Shown: in pieces, positions 2,471 to 15,832 of the stretch
Position numbering within the stretch: the stretch's first letter is position 1
How the letters are laid out: every line of letters starts with the position of its first letter
Assembly: GCF_002214505.1 (NCBI RefSeq)
Contig: NZ_CP015103.1
Coordinates: 744,001-808,000 of the forward strand
Length of the DNA stretch: 64,000 nucleotides
DNA from: Thermococcus siculi
GTDB lineage: Archaea; Methanobacteriota_B; Thermococci; Thermococcales; Thermococcaceae
Reading direction: 5' to 3'
The notes under the pieces: model-generated
Database searches by the model: none
Told to the model about the DNA's origin: nothing
What the model saw: the letters and a program-made list of their open reading frames with translations, nothing else
Position numbers and translations under genes: made by a program

Positions 2471-2746
2471 TTGGGACATACGGTGTACTACCGCATTAAG
2501 GTCGAGAGATGGGGGGATTTCAGGGATTTTCTGAAGCGAATCTGCGAGGGTTTGGGCTATACATTTATCGATGGGAATGATTCGGTATTGGTTATCCCTG
2601 ACTGCTCCTTGGTGGAACCCCTGGAGATAAAGAAGGACGGGGAGGGCTTTTCAAAGACAAATTTCATCGAGCCATGCCATTCGATATACCTGCTCATCCT
2701 TCACTCCGTCTCTTCCTTCGGCTCAGTTTCTGTCTGGGAGGACTGA
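2471..2746 (+). CDS. Conserved-looking hypothetical protein, TTG start
   Basis: A 91-residue soluble protein of unknown function; no family recognised. It is preceded by a TATA-like element and a GGTGAT ribosome binding site at 2462-2467, which fits the TTG at 2471 (protein GHTVYYRIKVE) better than the in-frame ATGs at 2447 and 2456. The central segment alternates hydrophobic residues, suggesting a small alpha/beta fold. The last 46 bases overlap the 3' end of the convergent DUF2101 gene, so the tail HSVSSFGSVSVWED is antisense to that gene's acidic C-terminus. Whether both reading frames are used there is uncertain. Confidence 0.5.
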   Translation: MGHTVYYRIKVERWGDFRDFLKRICEGLGYTFIDGNDSVLVIPDCSLVEPLEIKKDGEGFSKTNFIEPCHSIYLLILHSVSSFGSVSVWED

Positions 2747-3462
2747 TCCCTGGACTCATCTCCTTCCAGGTAGACCTCTATTATCCTCGACGGGACGGAA
2801 CCCCTGAATTTTCGATCCTCCACCAGCAGCTTGACGACCCTCCCAACCCGGAGATCCTCGACGGCGTCCACCCAGTAGTAGCCGGGCTTCACGTTTGCCG
2901 CTATGTCGTCGTGGACGAAGACCCTGACTGCGTCCCCTTTGATCTCCTCCACGACGCCGTAGGTGTAGTCGCGGCCGTACCTCTGCTTGAAGTACCAGCG
3001 GAATGCGAGTATTAATACGACCACGAGGGCCAGGTATGCGTAGTAATAGTACACGCTGGTGGCTATCGTTCTAACCATGTCGTACCCGGCGAAAGCGGCG
3101 AAGGTTAGCCAGGTTATCGAGTAATAAAAAAATCTGTAAGGCTCAACATCGACGAAAAATCCCCGATTCCTCGTCGTCAGGTACCTTATGTACAGGAATT
3201 CAACCGTGGCCAGTGCCAGTATCCAGAGGGGATTTGTTCTGAAAAAAAGGAGAATCAGGCCGGTAATTAAGTAGATCAAAAAGCTGATCTGAAGCTTCAG
3301 GCTGAGGAACTCGTGGGGGCTGAGGGGCTTTTTGATGAGTCTCTTCAGATGCCTGAAGTTTGGTGGTTGTTCGACTGGGGAGGGCATCAAAAATTCGGTG
3401 ATTTTATCGACGACAGAGTACACTGCATCCCCCAGTTGGTACAGGAAGCCTTCAACCGACAT
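2701..3462 (-). CDS. DUF2101-like membrane protein, last gene of the CetZ/pilin array
   Basis: A 253-residue membrane protein resembling the Thermococcales DUF2101 family. It has a soluble N-terminal part, three or four hydrophobic helices between about residues 55 and 155 (for example SFLIYLITGLILLFF and LALVVVLILAF), then a soluble beta-rich domain (GVVEEIKGDAVRVFV) and an acidic tail. ATG 3462 has GGAGGG upstream; the longer frame from 3501 starts inside the preceding gene. It begins four bases after the stop of the 1,101-residue pilin-like gene, so it very probably shares its transcript. A role in assembling or anchoring the pilin-like proteins is inferred from context only. Confidence 0.7.
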   Translation of the reverse strand: MSVEGFLYQLGDAVYSVVDKITEFLMPSPVEQPPNFRHLKRLIKKPLSPHEFLSLKLQISFLIYLITGLILLFFRTNPLWILALATVEFLYIRYLTTRNRGFFVDVEPYRFFYYSITWLTFAAFAGYDMVRTIATSVYYYYAYLALVVVLILAFRWYFKQRYGRDYTYGVVEEIKGDAVRVFVHDDIAANVKPGYYWVDAVEDLRVGRVVKLLVEDRKFRGSVPSRIIEVYLEGDESRDQSSQTETEPKEETE

Positions 3463-3466
3463 GATT

Positions 3467-6400
3467 TCAACCCTCCAGCAGATCGCTTGCCCCTTGTACA
3501 CCGAATATCTTCCTCGCTATGGCGGGCGTTAAATAGAAGTTCTCATCCAGTAATGGAGATGAGACGCCACCGTTGGTGGAGATTCCGTACACTTTCTTGG
3601 CGTTCGGATCGTCCGAGGGATAATTGCGGTAGTCGAGGTATATGTAATCTGCCGCCGGCTGTTTTCTGACGAGGAAGTTGAGGTTGGGCGGAAGGTCCTT
3701 CGGGAGGATGAAGCTTATCAGTCCGATCGGGTATCTAGCGGCCCCGTACACTGCCTCCTGCATCTTTGCGGCCATTCTCTCGTAGTAGGCCCTGTTGGTT
3801 GTGTCCCCTCCCTCCAGTCTCTCGAAGAACGAGGGTGCCCCGGGAACTCCGAAGTACTTCTGTGCCTGGATGCAGTCGATGAAGGGCTGGATATCGTACA
3901 CCCTAGCTGTTGAGTATCCGCCTCCGGAGGATGGTAGGCTCTCGCTTGGGGTAATGGTGAGCTGGCTGTCGGTGTATGTGTTATACGGGTAAGGTGCGGC
4001 AACTATCCAATGGAAGGTTGCACTGTTGTTATCTTTCTGGGGATTGTTATCTATTGTGGCATAGAGTTCATAGCCGTTTGGGTTGCTATCTACCAGAGTA
4101 TGGGATTCGTGCGTGATGTCTAGGTTGGGGTTGTATGTGAACGTGAGGTCGAGTCCATCGCTTACCTTGCTAACGACTACCTCGTACCTCTGCGCTGTGT
4201 CTAGGTGCCAGGCTCCGTTGTAGTTGTCGAGGTTGTTGGTCCAGTTTTGCAGTATGGCGAGCTTGTCCCCGTCGTGATCCGGATTGCCAGGATTGTCGTC
4301 TATGAACTCGATCTTAGTCTGCACTGGAAGGAAGATGCTGTCCTGCTTCATATCGGATATATCGAGGTATTTCCTGACATAGATAAAATCGTACTTTGCC
4401 GGTCCCTTGTAAATCTGGCCCAGTCCAATAGGTTCGTCCGATTCAGATAGATACCATAGGTATTCACTCACGGGACTGCCCCAGGTTCCTTTGAATTGCC
4501 CTGTAGTCTGGTATGTGTAGAAGTCACCGGCGTCAATGTACAGCTCGAGACGACTCCATCTGTTCTTAGTATAACTTCCTCCGTTCTCCTTGTTATTGGA
4601 GAGACTTCCATCGTTTATGTTGAATTCTCTTAAATATCCTGTAGTTCTTTTTATATGCTCAATCCAGGCATCACCATCAGAATCTATGTACCACATGAAG
4701 AATGGCTGGTTCTTTAAGTACGCCTTCATTCCGATGACGTAAGAACTTGGAAATGTCTTTTTGGTCCATATCCACACGTCAGCCTTGGAATCTTTATCTC
4801 CCTGCAGGCTCAGAATTCCGTTGGAGACGGAATAACTTCCACCCTGAGCAGTTTTGTAATTCCACTTGCTGGTGTCTAGGGAGTTTCCACTGAAGTCATC
4901 AAAGAACTCGAAGACCTTGTTACCGTCTCCCCTAGTGGGTTGGCCATCCGATGGGCATATCAGGAAGGCATTGTAGTAGTAATCCGAGAGCCATCCAAAC
5001 ATCCACTCCATCCATCTCTGAACAAATGATGGCATGAAGCCGTACATCATCTTGAAGAACTCTTCCAGCAGGGATTCGTCGTTGGTCAGATTGGCTTTGA
5101 CCCATATCAGGGCACCATCGGAGTCCCAGTACTCTATCCAGAACGGTACCTTGTTTCCATAAACGTCGGTTATCTCTATCGCCGCCCTGTTGGTCGTCCA
5201 CTGTGCTCCAAGCTTGCTTATGTTGTCTGGGGAGAGGTATATGGGTATCTGAATGTCCTCCGTGTCAACACCTGAAAAGATGGAAGTGCTTATCGATTTT
5301 ACAACGAGCAGGCACTTTGATGAGTTAAAGCTCATCTCCACGCCGCTGTCGAAGTCCCTTGCGTTTGACTCCGCTTTGAGTGAGTATCTGACGAAGAACG
5401 ACTCCCAGGGTATATCGGATACAAGTTCGCTCCATTCCTCTGCTGCCGGAAGGGTAACGCTCTCGTTGTGGACGGGGAATAGTGCAATGTTTCCTTCCCA
5501 TTCCATGCTCTGGTCGCTGGTGGAGTAGTAGACGGTGTAGTCCCTCGTGTCCGTGGTGTTCAGCCAGATGAGTATCTTATCGTCCCCCCAGTACTCGATC
5601 CAGTAGGGGGCCATCTCACAGGCCGTATCGGAGCGTTTGTATATCCTAATCGAGGCGGCATTTCCATCGTGAACGGCACTTCCAAATGGAACGTTCGACG
5701 GGTTCAAAACAAGGAGGACGAGGGAATTCAGGGGCGCCGTGCTGGGAAGGGTCATATTCGTCCTGAATTCCATATTCTTCTCGCACCAGTGCGCCTGAGT
5801 GCCCGTGCCCCCCCCGCTCACCGAATCGAACGTCATCACTCCGATATCCCCCGGGCTGAAGACGCTCAGTGGGGAGGTGCGTTTCCCGTTTAGAGAGGTG
5901 TTGAATATGTATGGTGCGTTGGGACTCTCCGATGGTTGGTTCGCCATCACGTAGCCAAGAAGGTTGCTTCCGCTGATGTACTTGTCGCCGTAGAATATCT
6001 TTCCGCCCCTGGGCACGTTGTAAAGCTGGCCGGAGAACGTCTTTATGCTGGATTGGCCATAACCATCCATTTTAATGTACGGAGGTGTTATTGAGGGGTA
6101 CGCGAATTTACATGCCGAGATTATTCTCGAGGCCCTTCCCTTGGTTAGGTGGGGGAAGAGCGGGTCTTCGATTCCCTCAATTGGTATGACCACGTAGACC
6201 GAGCCGTTCTGGGGGATCGAGGAGTTGTAGACGACCTTCCCTGAGAGGTCTTCTATGACGATGTTGGGAATGCTCGCGTTCACAACTATATGGAAGGAGT
6301 CCAGGGGGGCTATTGTGAGCTTCATATTCCTCATGATGTCATCTGGACTCGTCTTCATGATGTAACCCTGCTTTCTCAGCTCCCATTTCATGTTCCTCAG

Positions 6401-6772
6401 CCAGTCCCTGATGGTGTTGTTCTTCATGAAGAACTTCTCCCTGGCGGTCCAGTTGGAGTTAGTGCCCCCTATGTATGAATAATGGCCGTACATTACGAGC
6501 TGTTCCAGGGCCCTGCTGGAGTTGTCCAGGGGCCTTTCAGCGGTCGCATAATCAACGGTCAGGGCTATCGCCCTCTTGGTTGAGAGGGAGAGTGTGTTCT
6601 TGAAGTCTTCTTCGAGATAGGAGGTTACCCTGAACGTTCTCTCTATCTCGACCTTCTCGCCTTGGGACGCTATTATCATCGATGACGCATCTTCGTAGGT
6701 GGCTATCAGTAGAAGTAAGGGGATGAGAAGGAGCAGTACTGCGGAGTTCATCAGAAATCCTCGCCTTTTCAT
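3467..6772 (-). CDS. Giant pilin-like surface protein with DUF2341 and lectin-like domains
   Basis: A 1,101-residue exported protein. A short basic MKRRG tract is followed by one hydrophobic segment (residues 6-25), as in class III (type IV pilin-like) signals, though the usual QxSxE motif is missing. Around residues 340-430 there is a DUF2341-like domain (VPFGSAVHDGNAASIRIYK, then PYWIEYWGDDKILIWLN), with a second PFWIEYWDSDGALIWVK copy near 543-561. From about 620 FFDDFSGNSLDTSKW marks a concanavalin-like domain, the usual partner of DUF2341. Many NxS/T sequons suggest N-glycosylation. The ATG overlaps the upstream stop by one base (TAATG). It probably forms an adhesive or tip element of a pilus-like fibre (inference). 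Confidence 0.75.
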   Translation of the reverse strand: MKRRGFLMNSAVLLLLIPLLLLIATYEDASSMIIASQGEKVEIERTFRVTSYLEEDFKNTLSLSTKRAIALTVDYATAERPLDNSSRALEQLVMYGHYSYIGGTNSNWTAREKFFMKNNTIRDWLRNMKWELRKQGYIMKTSPDDIMRNMKLTIAPLDSFHIVVNASIPNIVIEDLSGKVVYNSSIPQNGSVYVVIPIEGIEDPLFPHLTKGRASRIISACKFAYPSITPPYIKMDGYGQSSIKTFSGQLYNVPRGGKIFYGDKYISGSNLLGYVMANQPSESPNAPYIFNTSLNGKRTSPLSVFSPGDIGVMTFDSVSGGGTGTQAHWCEKNMEFRTNMTLPSTAPLNSLVLLVLNPSNVPFGSAVHDGNAASIRIYKRSDTACEMAPYWIEYWGDDKILIWLNTTDTRDYTVYYSTSDQSMEWEGNIALFPVHNESVTLPAAEEWSELVSDIPWESFFVRYSLKAESNARDFDSGVEMSFNSSKCLLVVKSISTSIFSGVDTEDIQIPIYLSPDNISKLGAQWTTNRAAIEITDVYGNKVPFWIEYWDSDGALIWVKANLTNDESLLEEFFKMMYGFMPSFVQRWMEWMFGWLSDYYYNAFLICPSDGQPTRGDGNKVFEFFDDFSGNSLDTSKWNYKTAQGGSYSVSNGILSLQGDKDSKADVWIWTKKTFPSSYVIGMKAYLKNQPFFMWYIDSDGDAWIEHIKRTTGYLREFNINDGSLSNNKENGGSYTKNRWSRLELYIDAGDFYTYQTTGQFKGTWGSPVSEYLWYLSESDEPIGLGQIYKGPAKYDFIYVRKYLDISDMKQDSIFLPVQTKIEFIDDNPGNPDHDGDKLAILQNWTNNLDNYNGAWHLDTAQRYEVVVSKVSDGLDLTFTYNPNLDITHESHTLVDSNPNGYELYATIDNNPQKDNNSATFHWIVAAPYPYNTYTDSQLTITPSESLPSSGGGYSTARVYDIQPFIDCIQAQKYFGVPGAPSFFERLEGGDTTNRAYYERMAAKMQEAVYGAARYPIGLISFILPKDLPPNLNFLVRKQPAADYIYLDYRNYPSDDPNAKKVYGISTNGGVSSPLLDENFYLTPAIARKIFGVQGASDLLEG

Positions 6773-8937
6773 TAGCTCTCCCTCCATACTCTAAGGGTTA
6801 TAACTATTGGGGTTATGGAACTCGGAATCCCCCCGAGGGACGCGAAGTCTATCCTGGCGTCGGACAGCTCAACGAGTATCGGGTGATCCCAGCCGTCTCC
6901 TCCGAGCTTGTGGAACAGCCTGAGAACGGCATCGTCCACGGCATAATCGTCGGGCTGGAGTTCTGTGGCGGTCAGATTCTTGTACTCTCCCCTGGACACT
7001 GCCGCCTTGTCTCCGATGATTATGCTCGACATCCTGACGGTGGTTCCTACCTTATACTTGTAGGTGAGGTTGTAAGCCTTTACCTCCGGGTATCCCTGGA
7101 GGAGTTTGGGCTTGATGTCCTTGTACGGTGCGTAGGCGTCGAGCAGGAACAGTACCTCTCCGAGGGCGTGGGATGGATCAACTCCGTAGCAACTCCCGAA
7201 TGTGAGCTTGAACTTGTTAAGGCCTGGGTGTATGGCGTCGTTGACCACGTTACCCTGATAATCCCTCGTGGTCACGGTGTACCCCCACCTGGCAAAAACG
7301 TTCAGGAAATCGTTGTGATCGGGGGCGTCGTAGAGGGTTACCCATGAGGTTTCGTCTTTTTTCAGTATCTGAACGTTCTGGTCGCAGATCTGGCCGGCAG
7401 TGTGGAGCCACGGGAGCTGGTACTTAACGTATATTGGATTACCCTTAGTGGGGAGGTTCCACTGCCAGGTGACCCTGTGATAGAAGTCTCCACTGAAGTG
7501 ACCGCTGGCAGTGTAATCGTTGAGAGTCTTCCGGAAGTCTATGGAGTAGAGGCTGGCATACACGAAGGGGGTGTAATCAACGTAAACGTAGGATTTAGTC
7601 CCCTCGACGTGTAACTCCTCACCCCTTTTGCGCGTTATGTCGAAGATTATGGTGAAGAACGAACCTGATATGTCCCTGTAGGTGTACCCGGTGGATTGTA
7701 TGGCACTTGCTATCGTGGCGTTATCCGCGGTGAATATGTTACCGGACTGGGATAGCGTTATTGGGTCTGAAAGTTTGTTGAAAATCCTGAAGCGGGCGGT
7801 CACGGATTCTATGTTCTCGCCCTCGATGTGAATCCTCATCTCACTGATGTTTCCGGGTGCGAACACGTACTTTTCCATGTCCAGCGAGTCGTTGGCATAG
7901 ACGTCGGCGAAGTAGAACTTATGTGGGTACGTGAAGGTGGACGCCTGGGAAGTGCGGTATGTGATTATGACGTGCTGGGCACCGTCCTCTCCCGAGTTCC
8001 TTGAGTGGTCCACCAGAACCTCAAACGTCGTGTTGGTTCTCTGGCTGGTTCTGTTCTGTACCTCCTCAACCAGATTGCAGGTGTTGTAGTCATTGGCACT
8101 AGTGTCTTCGATCTCTTCGTTGAGATAAACCTCGTTCCACCTTCCGTTGTCCCAGTTTCCACATGTCACGTACTTGCCGTTTATTCTGAGTGAGTAGTCC
8201 GAGTGGGTCCACGCTCCCTCCAGGAGCCACTTTACCCCGGTAATCTTGGCATCGGAGGGGAACTGTGAGGTCGGGATGATGTATCTGATTCTTATCGGCC
8301 CAGTGCGGTAGTTGGCCGTCGCTATGTAGTCACCCATGTATGTGTACGTCGTTTCCTTCGCCTTCAGCTTTGTCAGGTAAGCCCTCGCCATGTATCCCCT
8401 GGGCGTCTTATTGTACTCGTAACCGCTCAGTATTAAAGTGGCTGGCATGACGTCTGGGGTCAGGTTGTAGTTGCTCCCCTTCTTGATGATGTAGGGTTTC
8501 TCGTAGTTGTATAAGCTACCGCTCTCGTTTGTGGATATTATCAGCTCGTAGTTGTAGTTCTCCAGCGAGGTGTTGAGGATGTATTCAAGAATCTCCCCCG
8601 CCTTTTCCCTGAGTTTCAGCCCCGGATACTTGGCCTCCAGTGACCAGTAGGTGGCCGTTATCTCAAGGGGGGACATGCGGGGATCCACGAAGGTGGTGTT
8701 GAGAACCCCCGAGGAAATCCACTCCGAGATTTTTTCCTGGGGGACTATGTCGCTGAGGGGAACGGTTTTCAGCATGGTTAGCGTATCTTCGGCGAGGTAC
8801 TTGTCGCTCGAGCGCATGTAAGTTGAGTATACGTCCCTGCTCTGGGCCTCTATCCCGATTATGCTGGTAATTATTATCAGGGCCAGAAACACGGAGAGTA
8901 TCGCGTCCAGGGTAAAAATGAAGGCTCGCCTCTTCAT
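6772..8937 (-). CDS. Large pilin-like membrane-anchored surface protein
   Basis: A 721-residue protein with a pilin-like N-terminus: MKRR, then FTLDAILSVFLALIIITSIIG as a single hydrophobic helix, then an extracellular ectodomain rich in Asn, Thr and Tyr with many NxT/S sites. The ectodomain looks beta-rich and is not recognised. Its ATG overlaps the stop of the preceding gene (ATGA), and its own stop overlaps the next start, so translation is coupled along the array. The LDAIL motif matches the neighbouring 464-residue protein (LDAML) and suggests that these are successive large pseudopilins. Confidence 0.7.
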   Translation of the reverse strand: MKRRAFIFTLDAILSVFLALIIITSIIGIEAQSRDVYSTYMRSSDKYLAEDTLTMLKTVPLSDIVPQEKISEWISSGVLNTTFVDPRMSPLEITATYWSLEAKYPGLKLREKAGEILEYILNTSLENYNYELIISTNESGSLYNYEKPYIIKKGSNYNLTPDVMPATLILSGYEYNKTPRGYMARAYLTKLKAKETTYTYMGDYIATANYRTGPIRIRYIIPTSQFPSDAKITGVKWLLEGAWTHSDYSLRINGKYVTCGNWDNGRWNEVYLNEEIEDTSANDYNTCNLVEEVQNRTSQRTNTTFEVLVDHSRNSGEDGAQHVIITYRTSQASTFTYPHKFYFADVYANDSLDMEKYVFAPGNISEMRIHIEGENIESVTARFRIFNKLSDPITLSQSGNIFTADNATIASAIQSTGYTYRDISGSFFTIIFDITRKRGEELHVEGTKSYVYVDYTPFVYASLYSIDFRKTLNDYTASGHFSGDFYHRVTWQWNLPTKGNPIYVKYQLPWLHTAGQICDQNVQILKKDETSWVTLYDAPDHNDFLNVFARWGYTVTTRDYQGNVVNDAIHPGLNKFKLTFGSCYGVDPSHALGEVLFLLDAYAPYKDIKPKLLQGYPEVKAYNLTYKYKVGTTVRMSSIIIGDKAAVSRGEYKNLTATELQPDDYAVDDAVLRLFHKLGGDGWDHPILVELSDARIDFASLGGIPSSITPIVITLRVWRES

Positions 8938-10328
8938 GAGTCATCCCACACCCACAGTTTTAGTACACTCCTCTCAAACTTCGGTTCCATCATGGTGTCC
9001 AGATGGCCCAGATCTTTTACACGAACAGTCCCGCCGAACGTGTTGTCGTAAACCCATACCGCGACAACCTTGGAACCGGCACCCGTTTCGAACGTCGTGA
9101 AAACCGAACTCCACGGGATATCTATGCTGGTGGTGTTTCCAATGTAGAACTTGGGTGGTGTGGAGTCGCCCGAGGTCGCCACCACCGCCTGGAGGTTGGA
9201 ATCCTCACTCTCCTTCCTTATCAGTATCCCCCTGTACTCGTCCCCGTCCCGCACCACGAGGATGATACTTCCCGTGTCCTGGGGAGCAACGGTAACCCTG
9301 AGGTACGCGTATTCCGGCACGTTCATTGTCAACCTGCCGGATATCCATTCCAATGTGGAGGAAGAGTCAACGTCAAGCTCTTCCTGGTACTCAAATCTCT
9401 CCACCGTGACCTTCCTCTCGATGTACTCAATCCATGGGGAGCGATCCCTCGATTTCTGTATCGTGGTGGCATCGCTCACCTTGCTGCCGTTGATGACAGT
9501 TATCGTGTATGACGGGGCCGTTAAATCCTCCGGCTCGATCACCGTAACGTTAACGCTGATCGTGCTCTTCTGGTATCCCTCAACGATGATCCTGACCCGT
9601 CCCTGCCCGGTTATGTGAAGGCCCTGCTTACTCCACTTCACCTGGAAGTTGGAGCCGGTTGATATTACCTGCACCTCAATGTAAGCCGGAGCAGTGATTG
9701 GGTAGTCCTCATGGTTTTTCCGGTCATGAACGGTTATATCCTCAAGGGCATAGAACGCCAGAACGTCTCCAGGAGATAGAGTGTAGGGCTGATTCCTCTT
9801 GGGGAGCTCGTCACCATTCAGGGTCACGTTGGCCGCGTCGAAGGCGTTGTTTCCGGTGCTACCCTGGCCGATCTGAATGTTTCTGTCCCTACCGTCGCTG
9901 AGGTCAATGAATATTCTCCTTGGAAAGTTACCTGTTAGCTCGACCGTGGTATTTGTGAGGTAGAATTGAAGCTCAAAGTCCTTGTTGTTGCTCATGTTGA
10001 CGAGGCTCTGAACCACAACTGCGTCGTCTTCCAGCTCCATCAGGGTGGATATCTTGTCGTAACTAATGGCGTAGGGCCGATAGTTGCTCCTGAGGCCCAG
10101 GCTCTTGAGCGTTGAAACGTCCTCGCTCCAGTTCGCGGGATCTCCGGGGCTCTTCGTCAGGACGTCGAGCATGTTGCTCGCGATGTTGGCCCGCTCATAC
10201 CACCCCACCATGGTGGATATCTCGTTCTGCAGGGCGCTGGACGTGCTGGTTATGGTGCCCAGAAGTACGACTACCATAACGAGAGCCAGCATGGCATCGA
10301 GTGAGAGTAGCTGTCCCCTGCGCCTCAT
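8934..10328 (-). CDS. Pilin-like surface protein with class III-type signal
   Basis: A 464-residue protein beginning MRRRGQLLSLDAMLALVM: the basic tract plus GQ fits a class III prepilin signal cleaved before the hydrophobic helix, although the +5 Glu is replaced (SLDA). The remainder is an extracellular, mostly beta-strand region with NxT/S sequons. A GGTGGGACC ribosome binding site precedes the ATG, and both ends overlap neighbours by four bases. Function is unknown apart from likely incorporation into, or priming of, a type IV-like filament. Confidence 0.7.
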   Translation of the reverse strand: MRRRGQLLSLDAMLALVMVVVLLGTITSTSSALQNEISTMVGWYERANIASNMLDVLTKSPGDPANWSEDVSTLKSLGLRSNYRPYAISYDKISTLMELEDDAVVVQSLVNMSNNKDFELQFYLTNTTVELTGNFPRRIFIDLSDGRDRNIQIGQGSTGNNAFDAANVTLNGDELPKRNQPYTLSPGDVLAFYALEDITVHDRKNHEDYPITAPAYIEVQVISTGSNFQVKWSKQGLHITGQGRVRIIVEGYQKSTISVNVTVIEPEDLTAPSYTITVINGSKVSDATTIQKSRDRSPWIEYIERKVTVERFEYQEELDVDSSSTLEWISGRLTMNVPEYAYLRVTVAPQDTGSIILVVRDGDEYRGILIRKESEDSNLQAVVATSGDSTPPKFYIGNTTSIDIPWSSVFTTFETGAGSKVVAVWVYDNTFGGTVRVKDLGHLDTMMEPKFERSVLKLWVWDDS

Positions 10329-10807
10329 GGTCCCACCACTTGGACGTTTATCACTACCTTCTTGTCCCCGTAGTAGAGGGAAGTGCCCTCCAATCTGGCA
10401 TCCGTGTGGTCTAGAAGGTCTCTGATTAGAAACGCCTTGAACGCCAGCGCCATCACGTCATTGTCAAGGTCTATTCTTCCGGAGTACCTCACCTGCACGT
10501 TTATGGTTATCGTGTCATCGCTCTCGCTCGATGTTATCGAGGAGACCATGAAGTTCTTCGAGGTGTAATTTGATTTCACGATTATCGCGTTGAGGAGGCT
10601 GTATGGCTGGGAGTTTACGGTAACCCCGGAGTTCAGGTATGAGCACGCGTGTGATGCCGATGATTTAACGTAGGCTATCAGCGATGTGTTGGTGTTTTCG
10701 TTTAGATAAGGGGTGACTACGAGGAGTACCCCGGTCAGTATGACCGCGGTTATGAAGAGAACCTCAATCGCCACCTGCCCCCTACGGCGAGTAGCTGAGT
10801 TCGACAT
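10325..10807 (-). CDS. Class III signal peptide protein (minor pilin-like)
   Basis: A 160-residue protein with the prepilin motif RRRGQVAIEVLF followed by one hydrophobic helix (ITAVILTGVLLVV). The rest is a small extracellular domain with several NxT/S sites (NTSLIAY, NYTSKNF). No earlier in-frame ATG fits, so the start at 10807 overlaps the preceding gene by 26 nt. Size and motif fit a minor pilin. Confidence 0.75.
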   Translation of the reverse strand: MSNSATRRRGQVAIEVLFITAVILTGVLLVVTPYLNENTNTSLIAYVKSSASHACSYLNSGVTVNSQPYSLLNAIIVKSNYTSKNFMVSSITSSESDDTITINVQVRYSGRIDLDNDVMALAFKAFLIRDLLDHTDARLEGTSLYYGDKKVVINVQVVGP

Positions 10808-11225
10808 AGACCTTCCCTCCCCTCTCCCTGGCCTTTACCCAGATCTCGCTATTGTCAGGGGTCATCTGAATTGACTCGTTTTGATAAATCGGGACGGGGC
10901 TCCTCTGGACTGTGACGTACTGCCTTCCCCCTACGTTGGCGGTTATGATTATGGTGTTATTACCGGTTATCAGCTGGATTGTAATGCTGTCCCCTGAGTC
11001 GAGAGGGATGGGTGGTTCCTTCTTGACGCTGAAGCCGTTGCCGGAGGCGTAGACCTTGGCGACGGTATCCCTCATATCCACGGAGAATATTTTAAGCCGG
11101 GTCGTCGCGTCGAACGTTTCCGCGTGGCTCCTCTGCATGTTGGCTATGTACACGATGTTGAGGACGGTGATGGCGATGAGAGTAATCGCGAAAAGGAAGT
11201 CCAGGCTTATCTGTCCCCTCTTCAT
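10782..11225 (-). CDS. Class III signal peptide protein (minor pilin-like)
   Basis: A 147-residue protein starting MKRGQISLDFLFAITLIAITVLN, a near-canonical archaeal prepilin signal with Asp in place of the usual Glu. A small ectodomain follows with SPVPIYQNESIQM-type beta strands. Two ATGs are possible: 11231, which overlaps the previous stop, or 11225; GGGGTG is better spaced for 11225. It is the second gene of the six-member pilin-like run. Confidence 0.75.
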   Translation of the reverse strand: MKRGQISLDFLFAITLIAITVLNIVYIANMQRSHAETFDATTRLKIFSVDMRDTVAKVYASGNGFSVKKEPPIPLDSGDSITIQLITGNNTIIITANVGGRQYVTVQRSPVPIYQNESIQMTPDNSEIWVKARERGGKVYVELSYSP

Positions 11226-11227
11226 GG

Positions 11228-11776
11228 TCATCCACCGGGGTTGATGTTGATTCTGATCTCCAGGTAACCGTTGACGACCGTTGCGTTCCAATCTTCCTTC
11301 TTGTCGGGGTTCCACTCCACCACTATTCTAACGGACTTTGCTGGAAGGCCGCCGGAGAATGAGAGGGATGCTTCATCCAGGCTGTAGGGTACCTCGGTAG
11401 TCACAGCGTTCTTGTTACCTCCACTGGTGACTGGGCTATCACCAACCCATACTTGAACCGAGTTTCCGCTTCCTTTTATCGTCACCCTTGTGGAACCAAA
11501 CGCCTTCTGCAGATAGTCAGGCTCCCCAAGATAGGTAACCTTTGCATATGTGGTGGATTTCGCTCCCGGTCCTTGGGCGTAAACCTGCGCTATGGTGCCC
11601 GCTATGGCATTGGCGAGGCTCTTCTCCTCGAGCAGAATCTGCATGCTCAGGGTGTCCGTCGAGGTAGAGCCTTCCTGAAAGGTGATGCTGTTGACGGAGT
11701 ACAGCATAAGCACGAGCATGACACCGAATACAAGCATGAACTCCAAAGACACCTGACCGCGTCTCGCAATACGCAT
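11228..11776 (-). CDS. Class III signal peptide protein, first pilin-like gene of the run
   Basis: A 182-residue protein with the most canonical prepilin motif in the array: ARRGQVSLEFMLVFGVMLVL (positively charged tract, G/Q cleavage site, Glu at +5, hydrophobic helix). It should be processed by the archaeal prepilin peptidase, which is not encoded in this window. ATG 11776 is preceded by GGGGAGAAAT; the in-frame extension to 11809 lacks a ribosome binding site. It starts 37 nt after the two-TM gene, the largest gap in the ten-gene array. It could be the main subunit or an initiator. Confidence 0.8.
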   Translation of the reverse strand: MRIARRGQVSLEFMLVFGVMLVLMLYSVNSITFQEGSTSTDTLSMQILLEEKSLANAIAGTIAQVYAQGPGAKSTTYAKVTYLGEPDYLQKAFGSTRVTIKGSGNSVQVWVGDSPVTSGGNKNAVTTEVPYSLDEASLSFSGGLPAKSVRIVVEWNPDKKEDWNATVVNGYLEIRININPGG

Positions 11777-11813
11777 ATTTCTCCCCTCAATTGGTATATC
11801 TTCGAACATCTAT

Positions 11814-12443
11814 TTAATGGTTACCCTTGGATTTTTCGGTCTTTACCACCGCGAAGAGGCCCGTTCCGAGTTTTTTGGTCTCCACACCGAAATAATCCCC
11901 GCTGAATATCTTGAACCTGTAGCGCTCCGGCTGGAGGTTGTGTCTCTCCACGAGGTTCCTCAGCTCGTCGATGAAGAACTGGGTCAGCTCGTAGTAGATT
12001 AGGTCGAACCGCTCCTTTGCCCGGTCATGGAGCATCACCGCGAGGGGGAGCAACGCCAGAGTCAGGAGGACGTAGGGCTGGCCGGTTACTATGGAGACCG
12101 CTCCCCCGGCCGCTATCACGGCCCCGAGAATGGCGTATCCGAGCTTTTCTCTCTTTCTTGTGTCCTTTATCTCCTTCACCTTGGCCTCCCAGATGTCGAG
12201 GAGGGCTGGATTGTAGAAGTCGAAGGCAGTATGCCTTTTTCCCTTCGCTATCCTCTCCCTTATGAGGTCGTCCCAGTCGTCTTTGTAGTAGATGACCTCG
12301 CCGTGGAGTTTGGCTCTCTCGGCATCGAGGGAGGAGATAATCCTGATAATGTCCTCGGCGCTCTCGTGGGCTATGTGGGAGTAGACTTCCTTCTCGTCGA
12401 GGTCGAGGGCCACTTCCACGGAGTCCTTGACCGGTTCAGTCAT
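11814..12443 (-). CDS. Unknown protein with a central two-helix membrane hairpin
   Basis: A 209-residue protein. The N-terminal 100 residues are acidic and helical. Two adjacent hydrophobic segments near residues 103-137 (LGYAILGAVIAAGGAVSIV and YVLLTLALLPLAVML) form a membrane hairpin, and the remainder is a basic helical cytoplasmic domain. No family recognised. It overlaps the CetZ-like gene by eight bases and precedes the pilin-like genes, so it could link the tubulin homologue to the membrane (inference). GGAGG is seven bases before the ATG. Confidence 0.7.
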   Translation of the reverse strand: MTEPVKDSVEVALDLDEKEVYSHIAHESAEDIIRIISSLDAERAKLHGEVIYYKDDWDDLIRERIAKGKRHTAFDFYNPALLDIWEAKVKEIKDTRKREKLGYAILGAVIAAGGAVSIVTGQPYVLLTLALLPLAVMLHDRAKERFDLIYYELTQFFIDELRNLVERHNLQPERYRFKIFSGDYFGVETKKLGTGLFAVVKTEKSKGNH

Positions 12444-13605
12444 CCTCCCGCCTCCGGAGGCCTTTCGTCACCTCGTTAAAGTCGGGGAACGAGCCTTCGT
12501 ATATCTCTGAAAGGTCCTCGTTCCCTGCGGGGTATATATCGTCAAAATCGGGCAACCCGCTGAGGAGTTCCTTCTTCTTTGTCTCGGCCTCCTCCTTCGC
12601 CTCCATGAAGGATTTAGCGTAGTTCTTTGCGGTGATTATGATGTCCTCTATGCTCTTGCTGTCGTAGATTCCGCTGAGGAGCGTAACCACCTCAACCTCC
12701 CTCTCTCTTGGATCCGGATAGAAGCCCCTGAAAATCTGCTTGCCCCTTATCTTGCCCGTGAGGTAATCGAGGGCCTCGAATATGTCTCCCGCCTTTAGAA
12801 CCTCCGGCGGCCCGTGGATCGCAACCAAGCCGTAGAGGGCCGATTCGATGTTGGCCTCCAGATAGAGGCCCTCGCTTTCGAAGGACTTTATTATTAGCCT
12901 TGAGAGGCTCTTTACTCTGCTCGCGTCCGCCTTGGCGTAGCCGACCGTCGCAAAGCTTCCAAAGGCCTTGAGAACGAACTTCAAATCGCTGGCATCGAGC
13001 GTCTGTTCTCCGGGAACATCAACCAACGCGAGGAGGGAAGCGATGCGCTCGACTATCGTGTAGTTTATCCTCTCGTAGGCCTGCTTTATGTCCAAGTCTC
13101 CTTCCTTGAGCTTGTTGTTGTCGATCGCTATAATGGAGTCCGCTATCTTAGAGAGCTTGTCTATCGTTATGGCCGCGTTGATGGTCGGCCTTATGCCCTC
13201 CTCCTTCAGGGGAAGCGCGCCTATGGCAACGACCAGCGAGTCGGGATACTCCTCCTTGAGGGCCTCCGCTAAAACAGGCGTTCCCCCTGCCCCCGTCCCG
13301 CCGCCGAAGCCAAAGGTGAGGAAGAATACGTCGACGTCCTCGTAGCCGATGATTGAGCCTATTTTGCGCATCACCATCGGCAGGTCGCGCTTCATGGCTT
13401 CCCTTCCGAGGATAGGGTTGGCGTTAACTCCTTTTCCGCCCGTCAGGCTCTCGCCTATTAGTATCCTCCTCTCCTGGGGGACGTGCTTGAGATAATCAAG
13501 GTCCCCCCTGGAGGTGTTTATCGCGAGAGCCTCAAAATCGACGAGGGAGAAGAGGTCGGCTATCTTCGTCCCGCACTGGCCGACCCCTATGATTAAAGCC
13601 CTCAC
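12436..13605 (-). CDS. cetZ: CetZ/FtsZ-like tubulin superfamily GTPase
   Basis: A 389-residue GTPase of the tubulin/FtsZ superfamily. The N-terminal MRALIIGVGQCGTKIAD and the tubulin signature GGGTGAG at residues 101-107 form the GTP site; a T7-like segment follows (INAAITIDKLSKIADSIIAIDNN). The GQCG opening favours CetZ over classical FtsZ. The GTG start at 13605 has GGTGAT six bases upstream. The tail is acidic (DFDDIYPAGNED, SFPDFNEVTKG), as in proteins that use a C-terminal peptide to bind partners. CetZ proteins are known to control cell shape and motility in haloarchaea; here the gene begins seven bases after a secreted-protein gene and heads into pilin-like genes, suggesting a role in positioning a surface structure. 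Confidence 0.85.
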   Translation of the reverse strand: MRALIIGVGQCGTKIADLFSLVDFEALAINTSRGDLDYLKHVPQERRILIGESLTGGKGVNANPILGREAMKRDLPMVMRKIGSIIGYEDVDVFFLTFGFGGGTGAGGTPVLAEALKEEYPDSLVVAIGALPLKEEGIRPTINAAITIDKLSKIADSIIAIDNNKLKEGDLDIKQAYERINYTIVERIASLLALVDVPGEQTLDASDLKFVLKAFGSFATVGYAKADASRVKSLSRLIIKSFESEGLYLEANIESALYGLVAIHGPPEVLKAGDIFEALDYLTGKIRGKQIFRGFYPDPREREVEVVTLLSGIYDSKSIEDIIITAKNYAKSFMEAKEEAETKKKELLSGLPDFDDIYPAGNEDLSEIYEGSFPDFNEVTKGLRRREDD

Positions 13606-13612
13606 TTCCCTA

Positions 13613-15832
13613 TCACCCCACGATTATCAGCTTTACTTTCCCGTTCTCCCTGAGGAGGATCATCGCGTCTCCACTTATGTACCGTATGAAGCCCGTGGTG
13701 AACACTTCCCTGGCGATATCCTCGTTTTCTGATTCATAGAACACGAAGAGAACCACTCCCTCTGGGGTCTTGCCCGGCACGAGGACGACGGAGCTGTTCA
13801 TTGGAACGGTGACGTTCCCGACGGTGACGTTGTTCCCCTCGATGTAGAACCTCAGGTAGGGGTTGTACTTCCTGATGCTGTAGTCCTCAAAGCCCGCCAT
13901 GACTATGTAGCTGCCCTCGCCTATCTCTGTGGTGTTCGAGGCAACGAAACCACCGCTGAACGCTTCGTTGAGGGCCTCGATTATCTCGCTCACACTCTCG
14001 TTGTCCATCTTGGGGGCTATTATCTCGAAGAAGTCGGTGTCGAGGGCGTTCCTGACATCGTAGAGGTTAACCGGAGGTATGTACTGGAAGCGGCTGAGGT
14101 AGATTATCGCGCTGGCGGTCTCTATGGGCTTGTCCTCTATCAGCCCGCTGTCCCTGGCGTCCATGACGAAGTCCAGGGTGTCCTCGGTGTAGTTGTAGCC
14201 GTACCTGGAGAGAAGGTCCGTGGCGCGGACGGTAAGCTCCACGCTGGGCGTTCCGGGGTACTCCTCGTTCTTCTGCCAGACGTAGTAGGTCTTCCAGTAG
14301 GCCCAGCCGCCGCCGACCCTCTGCTCAATGAGCCACTGGAGATGCGGGGCAAGCTCTTCAGGTGTGGCAACCCCGTCGAGGGCTTCAAGGACGGTTATCG
14401 TGGTGAGCACGTCTGGCTTGAGCATGTATGAGAAGTGGGGCGTGGTAACGTGGGTTCCCCAGCCGGTGTTGGTTATGCTGAGAAGCCAGTCCTTGGCCCT
14501 CTGTATGAGCGGGTCGCTGACTGGAACCCCGAGGTCGCGGAGGGCCTTGATGGCGAGGGCCGTATCGTAGGGCTGCGGACCGAGGACGGTGTTGCCCCAG
14601 AGACCGTAGTCGAGCTGGGCGTTCCTTATCGTCTCGATGGCCTCGGCCTTCTCCTCCTCGCTCAGCATGTTGTAGTGGAGGAGGGTTTCGAGGGCGTAGA
14701 AGTAGCCGACCGACATCCTGCCGTGCTCCTTCACCCAGAGGGCGTCTCTGGCAAAGGCCTCCCTGCTCCAGTTGATGGCCCTTTCAACGCTCTCGTTGCT
14801 CGGCTGGCACTTCTCGAGACCGAGGAGGGCGTAGTAGGTGGCCTTCTCGTCGCTTTCCCAGTCGACTATGAGGCCCCAGCCTCCGTCGAGGTTCTGCATC
14901 CCCTTGAGCGCCTCGCAGGGCATCGCGTAGGGGTTGGGCTTCTCCTCCGGGATTACAACCTTGATCGGATGGGAGAGCGCCATGAGGGCGAAGGATGTCG
15001 AGGCGATTATCTCCGTGGATGACATAAGCTGGGGGGTGTTCATCCAGTAGAAGAGGCCGTCAGAGGTCTTGCCCTCGTCCCTGAGGATCGAGAGTATCTT
15101 CGCGATGTCTAGGTCGAGCGGGGCTATGAGGACGAGGGCGTAGGTTAACATCGCTCTCTCCTTGACCTCGAGGTTATCGTTGAGGAGGATATCCTTGAGT
15201 TCATCGATTACATCGTCTCCGAGGGGATAACCAGTGCTGTGGTAGGCGATTACCTTGAGTGCCAGAAACTCGTAATCGGAAATCTCGCAGGAGGAGACGT
15301 TCTGTAGGTATCTCACCGCGTCCCTTATCGTCCTGCTGTTGTAGTTGTAGCCGTTCTCCCCGAGGGCCCACAGGGCCACGACGGTTGGATAGCAGGAAAC
15401 GGGCGTCCCGGGCACGTAGCCCCAGCCGTTCTCCTCCTTGGCCGAGAGAAGGTATGAAACGCCCCTGCTTATCGCCGCATCGGCGTCCTTGGCCCTCCAG
15501 AAGTCCAGAACGGGGTAGGCGTGCTTCAGAGCTATGACCGCGTAGGCGGTGTCGAGGACGTTGCTCGGCTCGTTGATGTAGTAGCCCCATCCCCCGTCGG
15601 CGTTCTGATCCTCCAGGAGCCTGTCAACAAGGGCGTTTATCTCGGGGGTTACGTCCCACTTCACGTCGTCTTTGGCGGCGACGAGGGCCATTATGCTGAG
15701 GCTTATCTCCCTAACCTGCTGGGTGTTCTCCGATGCCCCGCTGAGAAACCTCACGGAGCCGTCTATCGCTCCGGCGCTGACGGCTGGAATCAGCATGAAA
15801 ACAATCATTATTACGGCCAGAACCTTCTTCAT
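13613..15832 (-). CDS. Secreted prenyltransferase/squalene-cyclase-repeat (alpha/alpha-toroid) protein
   Basis: A 739-residue exported protein with a Sec signal (MKKVLAVIMIVFMLIPAVSA). Repeated helical units carry QW-like motifs, for example QNADGGWGY at residues 76-84 and MQNLDGGWGLIV near 310, typical of the alpha/alpha toroid shared by prenyltransferase beta subunits, terpene cyclases and alpha-2-macroglobulin thioester domains. No DxDD cyclase acid motif and no catalytic set were noticed, so a binding or structural role outside the cell is more likely than cyclisation. There is a GGGGTG ribosome binding site, and a TATA box (15868-15880) makes this the first gene of the CetZ/pilin array. 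Confidence 0.75.
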   Translation of the reverse strand: MKKVLAVIMIVFMLIPAVSAGAIDGSVRFLSGASENTQQVREISLSIMALVAAKDDVKWDVTPEINALVDRLLEDQNADGGWGYYINEPSNVLDTAYAVIALKHAYPVLDFWRAKDADAAISRGVSYLLSAKEENGWGYVPGTPVSCYPTVVALWALGENGYNYNSRTIRDAVRYLQNVSSCEISDYEFLALKVIAYHSTGYPLGDDVIDELKDILLNDNLEVKERAMLTYALVLIAPLDLDIAKILSILRDEGKTSDGLFYWMNTPQLMSSTEIIASTSFALMALSHPIKVVIPEEKPNPYAMPCEALKGMQNLDGGWGLIVDWESDEKATYYALLGLEKCQPSNESVERAINWSREAFARDALWVKEHGRMSVGYFYALETLLHYNMLSEEEKAEAIETIRNAQLDYGLWGNTVLGPQPYDTALAIKALRDLGVPVSDPLIQRAKDWLLSITNTGWGTHVTTPHFSYMLKPDVLTTITVLEALDGVATPEELAPHLQWLIEQRVGGGWAYWKTYYVWQKNEEYPGTPSVELTVRATDLLSRYGYNYTEDTLDFVMDARDSGLIEDKPIETASAIIYLSRFQYIPPVNLYDVRNALDTDFFEIIAPKMDNESVSEIIEALNEAFSGGFVASNTTEIGEGSYIVMAGFEDYSIRKYNPYLRFYIEGNNVTVGNVTVPMNSSVVLVPGKTPEGVVLFVFYESENEDIAREVFTTGFIRYISGDAMILLRENGKVKLIIVG

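Follow-up and report, generated by a model that had tools for sequence, protein, structure and literature searches.

A CetZ-pilin gene array of Thermococcales and its possible role in type IV pilus assembly

Background

Why does the gene for a CetZ protein, a tubulin-family GTPase, stand in one array with the genes for six pilin-like proteins in Thermococcus siculi, and what might such an array do? The locus bears on the placement and initiation of archaeal pili and on the function of CetZ in archaea other than the haloarchaea. It lies in a window of 64,000 nucleotides, the whole stretch of DNA that was analyzed, which corresponds to 744-808 kb of the 2.03-Mb single-contig genome (NZ_CP015103.1, here G000) of this member of the Thermococcales. 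Coordinates are window positions unless they are given in kb or with a genome or locus name.

A preliminary description of the window presented the array as an unstudied surface apparatus. The locus and the main idea about it are in fact already published. According to Makarova et al. 2016 (PMC4858521), who cite Szabo et al. 2007 for the first observation, most Thermococci encode an FtsZ-family GTPase and a squalene cyclase within their clade-1 type IV pilus loci, and the large DUF2341 proteins of these loci are placed at the pilus tip by analogy with PilY. Brown & Duggin 2023 (PMC9856176) describe the same locus, state that every analyzed cetZ of the Thermococcales adjoins pilins, and put forward the same hypothesis that is considered here, with CetZ as a scaffold for the assembly of type IV systems. 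According to both papers, the CetZ2 of haloarchaea lies, independently, next to a different pilus regulon. Our literature search found no experimental study of the proteins of the array, and no earlier report of the N-terminal code of the pilins, of the internal TTAAATA element before the first pilin gene or of the loss of the toroid gene in two complete genomes. These points, and the use of the conserved flanks as a limit on the synteny argument, do not appear in the available parts of PMC9856176.

The reading that we prefer, with a probability of roughly 0.5, is that the array supplies a clade-1 archaeal type IV pilus with its minor pilins and tip, and encodes in addition a CetZ module that probably organizes assembly at the membrane. 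Our analysis adds to the published locus a residue-level case for the pilus starter, an internal promoter-like element that is conserved, and a control against which to weigh synteny. The candidate starter protein and the second promoter make the proposed link between CetZ and pili testable, with p9 as a target for studies of initiation and of the identity of the tip, CetZ together with the two-TM protein for positioning, and the promoter P2 for independent control. Thermococcus kodakarensis and Pyrococcus furiosus, which belong to the same order, are genetically tractable.

Gene content of the array

The array consists of ten minus-strand genes (2701-15832) in the order secreted toroid, CetZ, two-TM protein, pilin-like p4 to p9, and DUF2101. 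They are as tightly packed as the preliminary description had stated: the largest intergenic gap is 37 nt if p4 starts at the ATG at 11776 (MRIARRGQ...), and genes overlap by 4-35 nt at several junctions. The first gene (13613-15832) encodes a secreted alpha/alpha-toroid protein of 739 aa with a signal peptide and QW-like repeats. It is followed by the genes for CetZ (12436-13605; 389 aa) and for a two-TM protein (11814-12443; 209 aa) that has a conserved soluble N-terminal part, a TM hairpin and a short C-terminal part.

The pilin-like proteins are p4 (11228-11776; 182 aa from the downstream ATG), p5 (10782-11225; 147 aa), p6 (10325-10807; 160 aa), p7 (8934-10328; 464 aa), p8 (6772-8937; 721 aa) and p9 (3467-6787; 1106 aa), in the last of which Pfam finds DUF2341. 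Two of the six match a class III signal family just below the Pfam cut-off, and the assignment of the other four as putative pilins rests on their conserved N-terminal pattern. The tenth gene encodes a DUF2101 membrane protein (Pfam, 1.1e-77), found in the open reading frame at 2701-3501; its true start is likely the internal ATG at 3462 instead of the listed start at 3501, which would place the gene at 2701-3462.

Conservation across the order

Orthologs of cetZ occur in 89 of the 94 Thermococcales genomes, and each of the six genera has the array. The five genomes in which cetZ is missing are 73-91% complete and fragmented. One of them, G056, was considered as a true loss and not accepted as such (210 contigs, 91% complete, the toroid being represented by no more than a match of 53 residues on a single contig). 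The toroid gene lies directly upstream of cetZ in 87 of the 89 genomes that have cetZ. DUF2101 was matched in 87/94 Thermococcales genomes and in none of 14 control genomes; in 74 of the 75 genomes where it shares a contig with cetZ, it is encoded on the same strand at a distance of 7.1-9.9 kb downstream. Among the genes present, the order is invariant in 34 loci from all six genera. The preliminary description would have been refuted by an adjacency confined to this genome; the adjacency of CetZ and pilins is instead a property of the order. In the locus L077 (G008, of genus g3), DUF2101 has been relocated about 36 kb away to the other strand and the remaining array is intact.

Order-wide synteny is nevertheless weaker support for a shared function than these counts suggest, because two unrelated neighbors are nearly as conserved: twy1 adjoins the array in 30 of the 34 loci, and guaAB is a conserved neighbor as well. 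We have downgraded synteny accordingly and do not treat it as strong proof of function. Better arguments are the overlaps between genes, the survival of an intact array in genus g3 even though no twy1 was found beside it there, and the haloarchaeal link between CetZ2 and pili, which is independent.

The flank holds a further observation. Between the GMP synthetase genes guaAA and guaAB, at 1079-1766, lies a pair consisting of an AF2212-like antitoxin and a PIN-domain toxin. One or both have relatives at this position in only some related loci (L084, L085, L089, L091 and L093, with PIN alone in L023), suggesting that the pair was gained or lost among relatives.

One transcription unit or two

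The preliminary description recognized one clear promoter. That promoter, P1, is present on the minus strand at 15881-15870 (AAAGTTTATTTA), with an A-rich BRE and a TATA element about 49 nt before the first start codon, but a second conserved element was missed: TTAAATA at 11817-11811, also on the minus strand, which overlaps the stop codon of the two-TM gene and which we call candidate promoter P2. The strict pattern for P1 (AAA[GC]TTTATTTA) matches before the toroid gene in 28 of 35 loci. For P2, the element T?TAAATA precedes the first pilin gene, p4, in all 35, at -38 to -57 from its start (-29 in one locus), against a background of 2% of 51-nt windows of the arrays and 7% of shuffled sequences. 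If transcription began about 23 nt past TTAAATA, the leader would be close in length to the T. kodakarensis median for 5' leaders, which is 16 nt (PMC4247193). The usual A-rich BRE is missing from many of the P2 copies, so the strength of the element is uncertain and may be low.

A single ten-gene operon is weakened by this result, not rejected; the tight packing of the genes favors it, while the conserved TATA-like element before p4 speaks against it. Because that element is conserved, separate transcripts for CetZ and the pilins, which the preliminary description named as a refutation of its reading, are now a live possibility. CetZ may be transcribed separately from the pilins by way of P2 and, if P2 is active, the two would be separately expressible.

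Carried further, the same evidence allows the array to be two neighboring units with promoters of their own, a toroid-CetZ-two-TM module for cell shape or the envelope and a p4-p9-DUF2101 tip set, which stay together because they share a conserved region of the chromosome. We regard this as possible. The presence of the P2 element in every locus argues for it, as do the spacing of P2 to its start codon, which is the same as that of P1 and fits the T. kodakarensis leader, and the likewise conserved flanks twy1 and guaAB. The survival of the array in genus g3 without an adjacent twy1 points the other way, as does the haloarchaeal CetZ2 beside a pilus regulon of a different kind; P2, moreover, may be weak in the many loci where it is without the A-rich BRE of P1.

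Pilus machinery encoded elsewhere in the genome

The array encodes no filament ATPase, platform protein or prepilin peptidase, and the preliminary description, which had noted this, proposed that it borrows the general pilus machinery of the cell. Both statements are supported by the rest of the genome, where all three are encoded. One strong secretion/pilus-type ATPase is followed by two TadC-like proteins at 503-507 kb of G000 (a PF00437 match and two PF00482 matches in a row). A single EppA-type peptidase (400 aa; Arc_PepC, 1.3e-30) is encoded at 2017 kb, where its neighbor is a major pilin of 55 aa with a class III signal; a further two small pilins lie at 1343 kb. An archaellum-type ATPase was not seen in this genome, and the pilus ATPase is present in 94 of 94 Thermococcales genomes. 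The motor genes are about 250 kb from the array, which probably supplies minor pilins to a pilus whose motor is encoded elsewhere.

These parts agree with those of the clade-1 loci in PMC4858521, which include an FtsZ-family GTPase (arCOG02202), a squalene cyclase (arCOG03396), at least five minor pilins, large DUF2341 proteins, an EppA peptidase and an ATPase with two TadC proteins. We found here a VirB11-type ATPase with two TadC proteins, assigned to the clade by family matches rather than by a tree, an EppA-type peptidase and, in one locus, minor pilins, DUF2341, the GTPase and the squalene-cyclase protein. The difference is that in clade-1 loci the motor genes share a locus with the pilins, whereas in this genome they do not. 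The EpdA-E minor pilins of Methanococcus maripaludis (PMC3875500) also belong to a clade-1 system, with a small major pilin, EppA processing, Q at +1 and E at +5. The available text mentions neither CetZ nor a toroid, and the minor pilins discussed there have 130-299 aa, with no member of the 1000-aa class.

Two observations concern the motor locus itself. The ATPase and TadC genes are preceded by genes for a DUF515 membrane protein and an uncharacterized secreted protein of 342 aa (L067:4783-7273), which resemble further pilus parts. In roughly half of the Thermococcales genomes, the ATPase ortholog is split near residue 455 by about 500 extra in-frame residues that look like an intein, giving open frames of about 1050-1230 aa; the insert is absent from the ATPase of this genome (L067:7280-9139; G000 503279-505135).

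A candidate filament-starting subunit

We read the N-termini of the six pilins from an alignment of 33-35 loci and found a code that is fixed in about 33 of them: three pilins carry an acid at +5 and two carry it at +6, while the last has it at neither position. In detail, p4 has Q+1, S+3 and E+5; p5, Q+1 and D+5; p6, Q+1 and E+5; p7, Q+1, D+6 and A+7; p8, F/Y+1 (F in the window), D+6 and A+7; and p9, F/Y+1 and N+4, with no acid at +5 or +6. In L016, the called open reading frame of p6 lacks the N-terminus.

The signature proposed for a first subunit in PMC5207764 is the sole minor pilin without Glu5, larger than the others and encoded at the 3' end of the cluster. In 33 of 33 loci p9 alone lacks an acid near +5; it is the last of the pilin set in every locus and the largest in 27/33, p8 being larger in 6/33. 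It matches two features of the published signature throughout and the third, size, in most loci, and is a candidate GspK-type filament-starting subunit. The core of p9, about 365 aa in the shortest form, accommodates a variable insert, in which DUF2341 is found in 7 of 13 members. Structure prediction gives this core an N-terminal helix of 45 residues together with an alpha/beta domain (pLDDT 79.5). Because a Foldseek search of the PDB with this core returned no match at E<=0.001, and so no GspK fold, kinship with GspK is unsupported by structure.

Like the GspH-I-J-K pseudopilins of type II secretion and the PilX/TcpB class, the set ends in a subunit, here usually the largest, that lacks Glu5 and has an extra domain. 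It differs from them in that no structural homology was detected for p9, that p7 and p8 have their acid at +6, and that the +1 residue of p8 and p9 is F/Y where Q would be usual. The model in PMC4858521 places minor pilins near the base of the pilus and DUF2341 proteins at its tip; here, the residue pattern would make the DUF2341-bearing p9 itself the pilin-type first subunit.

The p7 orthologs of two loci (L016:13339-15795 and L087:8285-10789) contain a bactofilin/DUF5649-like stretch (best E 8e-08), that is, a cytoskeleton-type beta-helix repeat within a secreted pilin-like protein.

If the array is the tip set of a type IV pilus, the motifs present and the peptidase found suggest that p4-p9 would be inserted through their class III signals and that the Q+1 pilins p4-p7 would be cut by the EppA-type peptidase at 2017 kb; according to PMC3875500, Q+1 probably matters for EppA. 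The subunit p9 would be the first and outermost of the filament since, having no acid near +5, it would be unable to pair with the N-terminus of another subunit placed above. Next to it would come p7 and p8, with their acid at +6, and p4-p6 would connect the tip complex with the small major pilins, an order that we infer from the invariant residue pattern and its match to the published signature. To judge by the protein families, the ATPase and the two TadC proteins at 503-507 kb would extrude the filament, and the variable inserts of p9 with DUF2341 and the extensions of p7 and p8 would serve as modules for contact or adhesion.

The cluster combines large minor pilins, the last of them GspK-like, with a secreted protein, and together with the single strong pilus-type ATPase of this genome these could also make up a short pseudopilus, a piston like that of type II secretion that exports the toroid or other substrates, instead of a long adhesive pilus. 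Archaea of the Thermococcales kind have no outer membrane to cross, which counts against such a piston. The signal peptide of the toroid is an ordinary one, and in two genomes the system has been retained although the toroid is gone. There are also small major pilins encoded on their own, and in M. maripaludis pili are the product of the orthologous clade-1 system (PMC3875500). We therefore consider a pseudopilus very unlikely. Least likely of all is a surface apparatus distinct from any type IV pilus, as the wording of the preliminary description suggests, since the points in its favor (no motor gene within the array, pilin-like proteins of up to 1106 aa, the unusual +1 residues of p8 and p9) meet only one motor in this genome and the published placement of such arrays in clade-1 type IV pilus loci (PMC4858521).

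CetZ, the two-TM protein and the toroid

In the preferred reading of the array as a pilus tip set with a CetZ module, the two-TM protein would anchor CetZ polymers to the membrane, and the polymers would cluster the site of assembly or position it, with the secreted toroid as a dispensable extracellular partner. This step is suggested by the gene order and by analogy with the published association of CetZ and pili in haloarchaea. The identity of CetZ is clear, with Pfam matches above cut-off to Tubulin (3.6e-31) and CetZ_C (2.8e-15), conservation of the nucleotide-binding GGGTGAG (T4) and of the T7 acidic residues in 35 loci, and solved CetZ proteins as its best matches in the PDB. Across the order, CetZ retains at least 82% identity; most of the pilins go down to 30-50%. 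In the two-TM protein, it is the soluble N-terminal part (SAEDIIRIISS; GKRHTAFDFYNP) that is conserved, rather than the TM hairpin, as would be expected if the N-terminal part contacts a conserved cytoplasmic partner, for which CetZ is the obvious candidate. A Foldseek search of the PDB gave no fold match for this protein.

The C-terminal LLxGLPDFDDIY of CetZ was considered as a dock specific to the array and rejected, because NDLEEIY, a similar sequence, closes the third of the solved CetZ-type chains (3zid) and because the CetZ proteins of Archaeoglobales, Methanomicrobiales and Methanosarcinales are reported in PMC9856176 as not associated with pili.

The most detailed version of the proposal has a CetZ polymer, held at the membrane by the two-TM protein, that nucleates or positions the pilus by way of a six-pilin tip with p9 as a GspK-like starter and swappable adhesive inserts, the two halves of the array being under separately controlled promoters; taken as a whole, we consider it doubtful. 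If CetZ does organize pili, a tubulin homolog would be scaffolding a type IV filament in archaea that are distantly related to the haloarchaea.

Pfam identifies the secreted protein as an alpha-alpha toroid of the squalene-cyclase/TED type. The window protein contains neither DxDD nor DDTA, only LDTA and YDTA, and with the catalytic acid motif DxDD missing a working squalene cyclase is unsupported. The toroid gene has been lost in two genomes that are 99% complete, G020 and G072. In G020, twy1 stands directly before cetZ with a promoter-like element there, and in G072 twy1 lies just before cetZ too; a P1-like element precedes cetZ in both.
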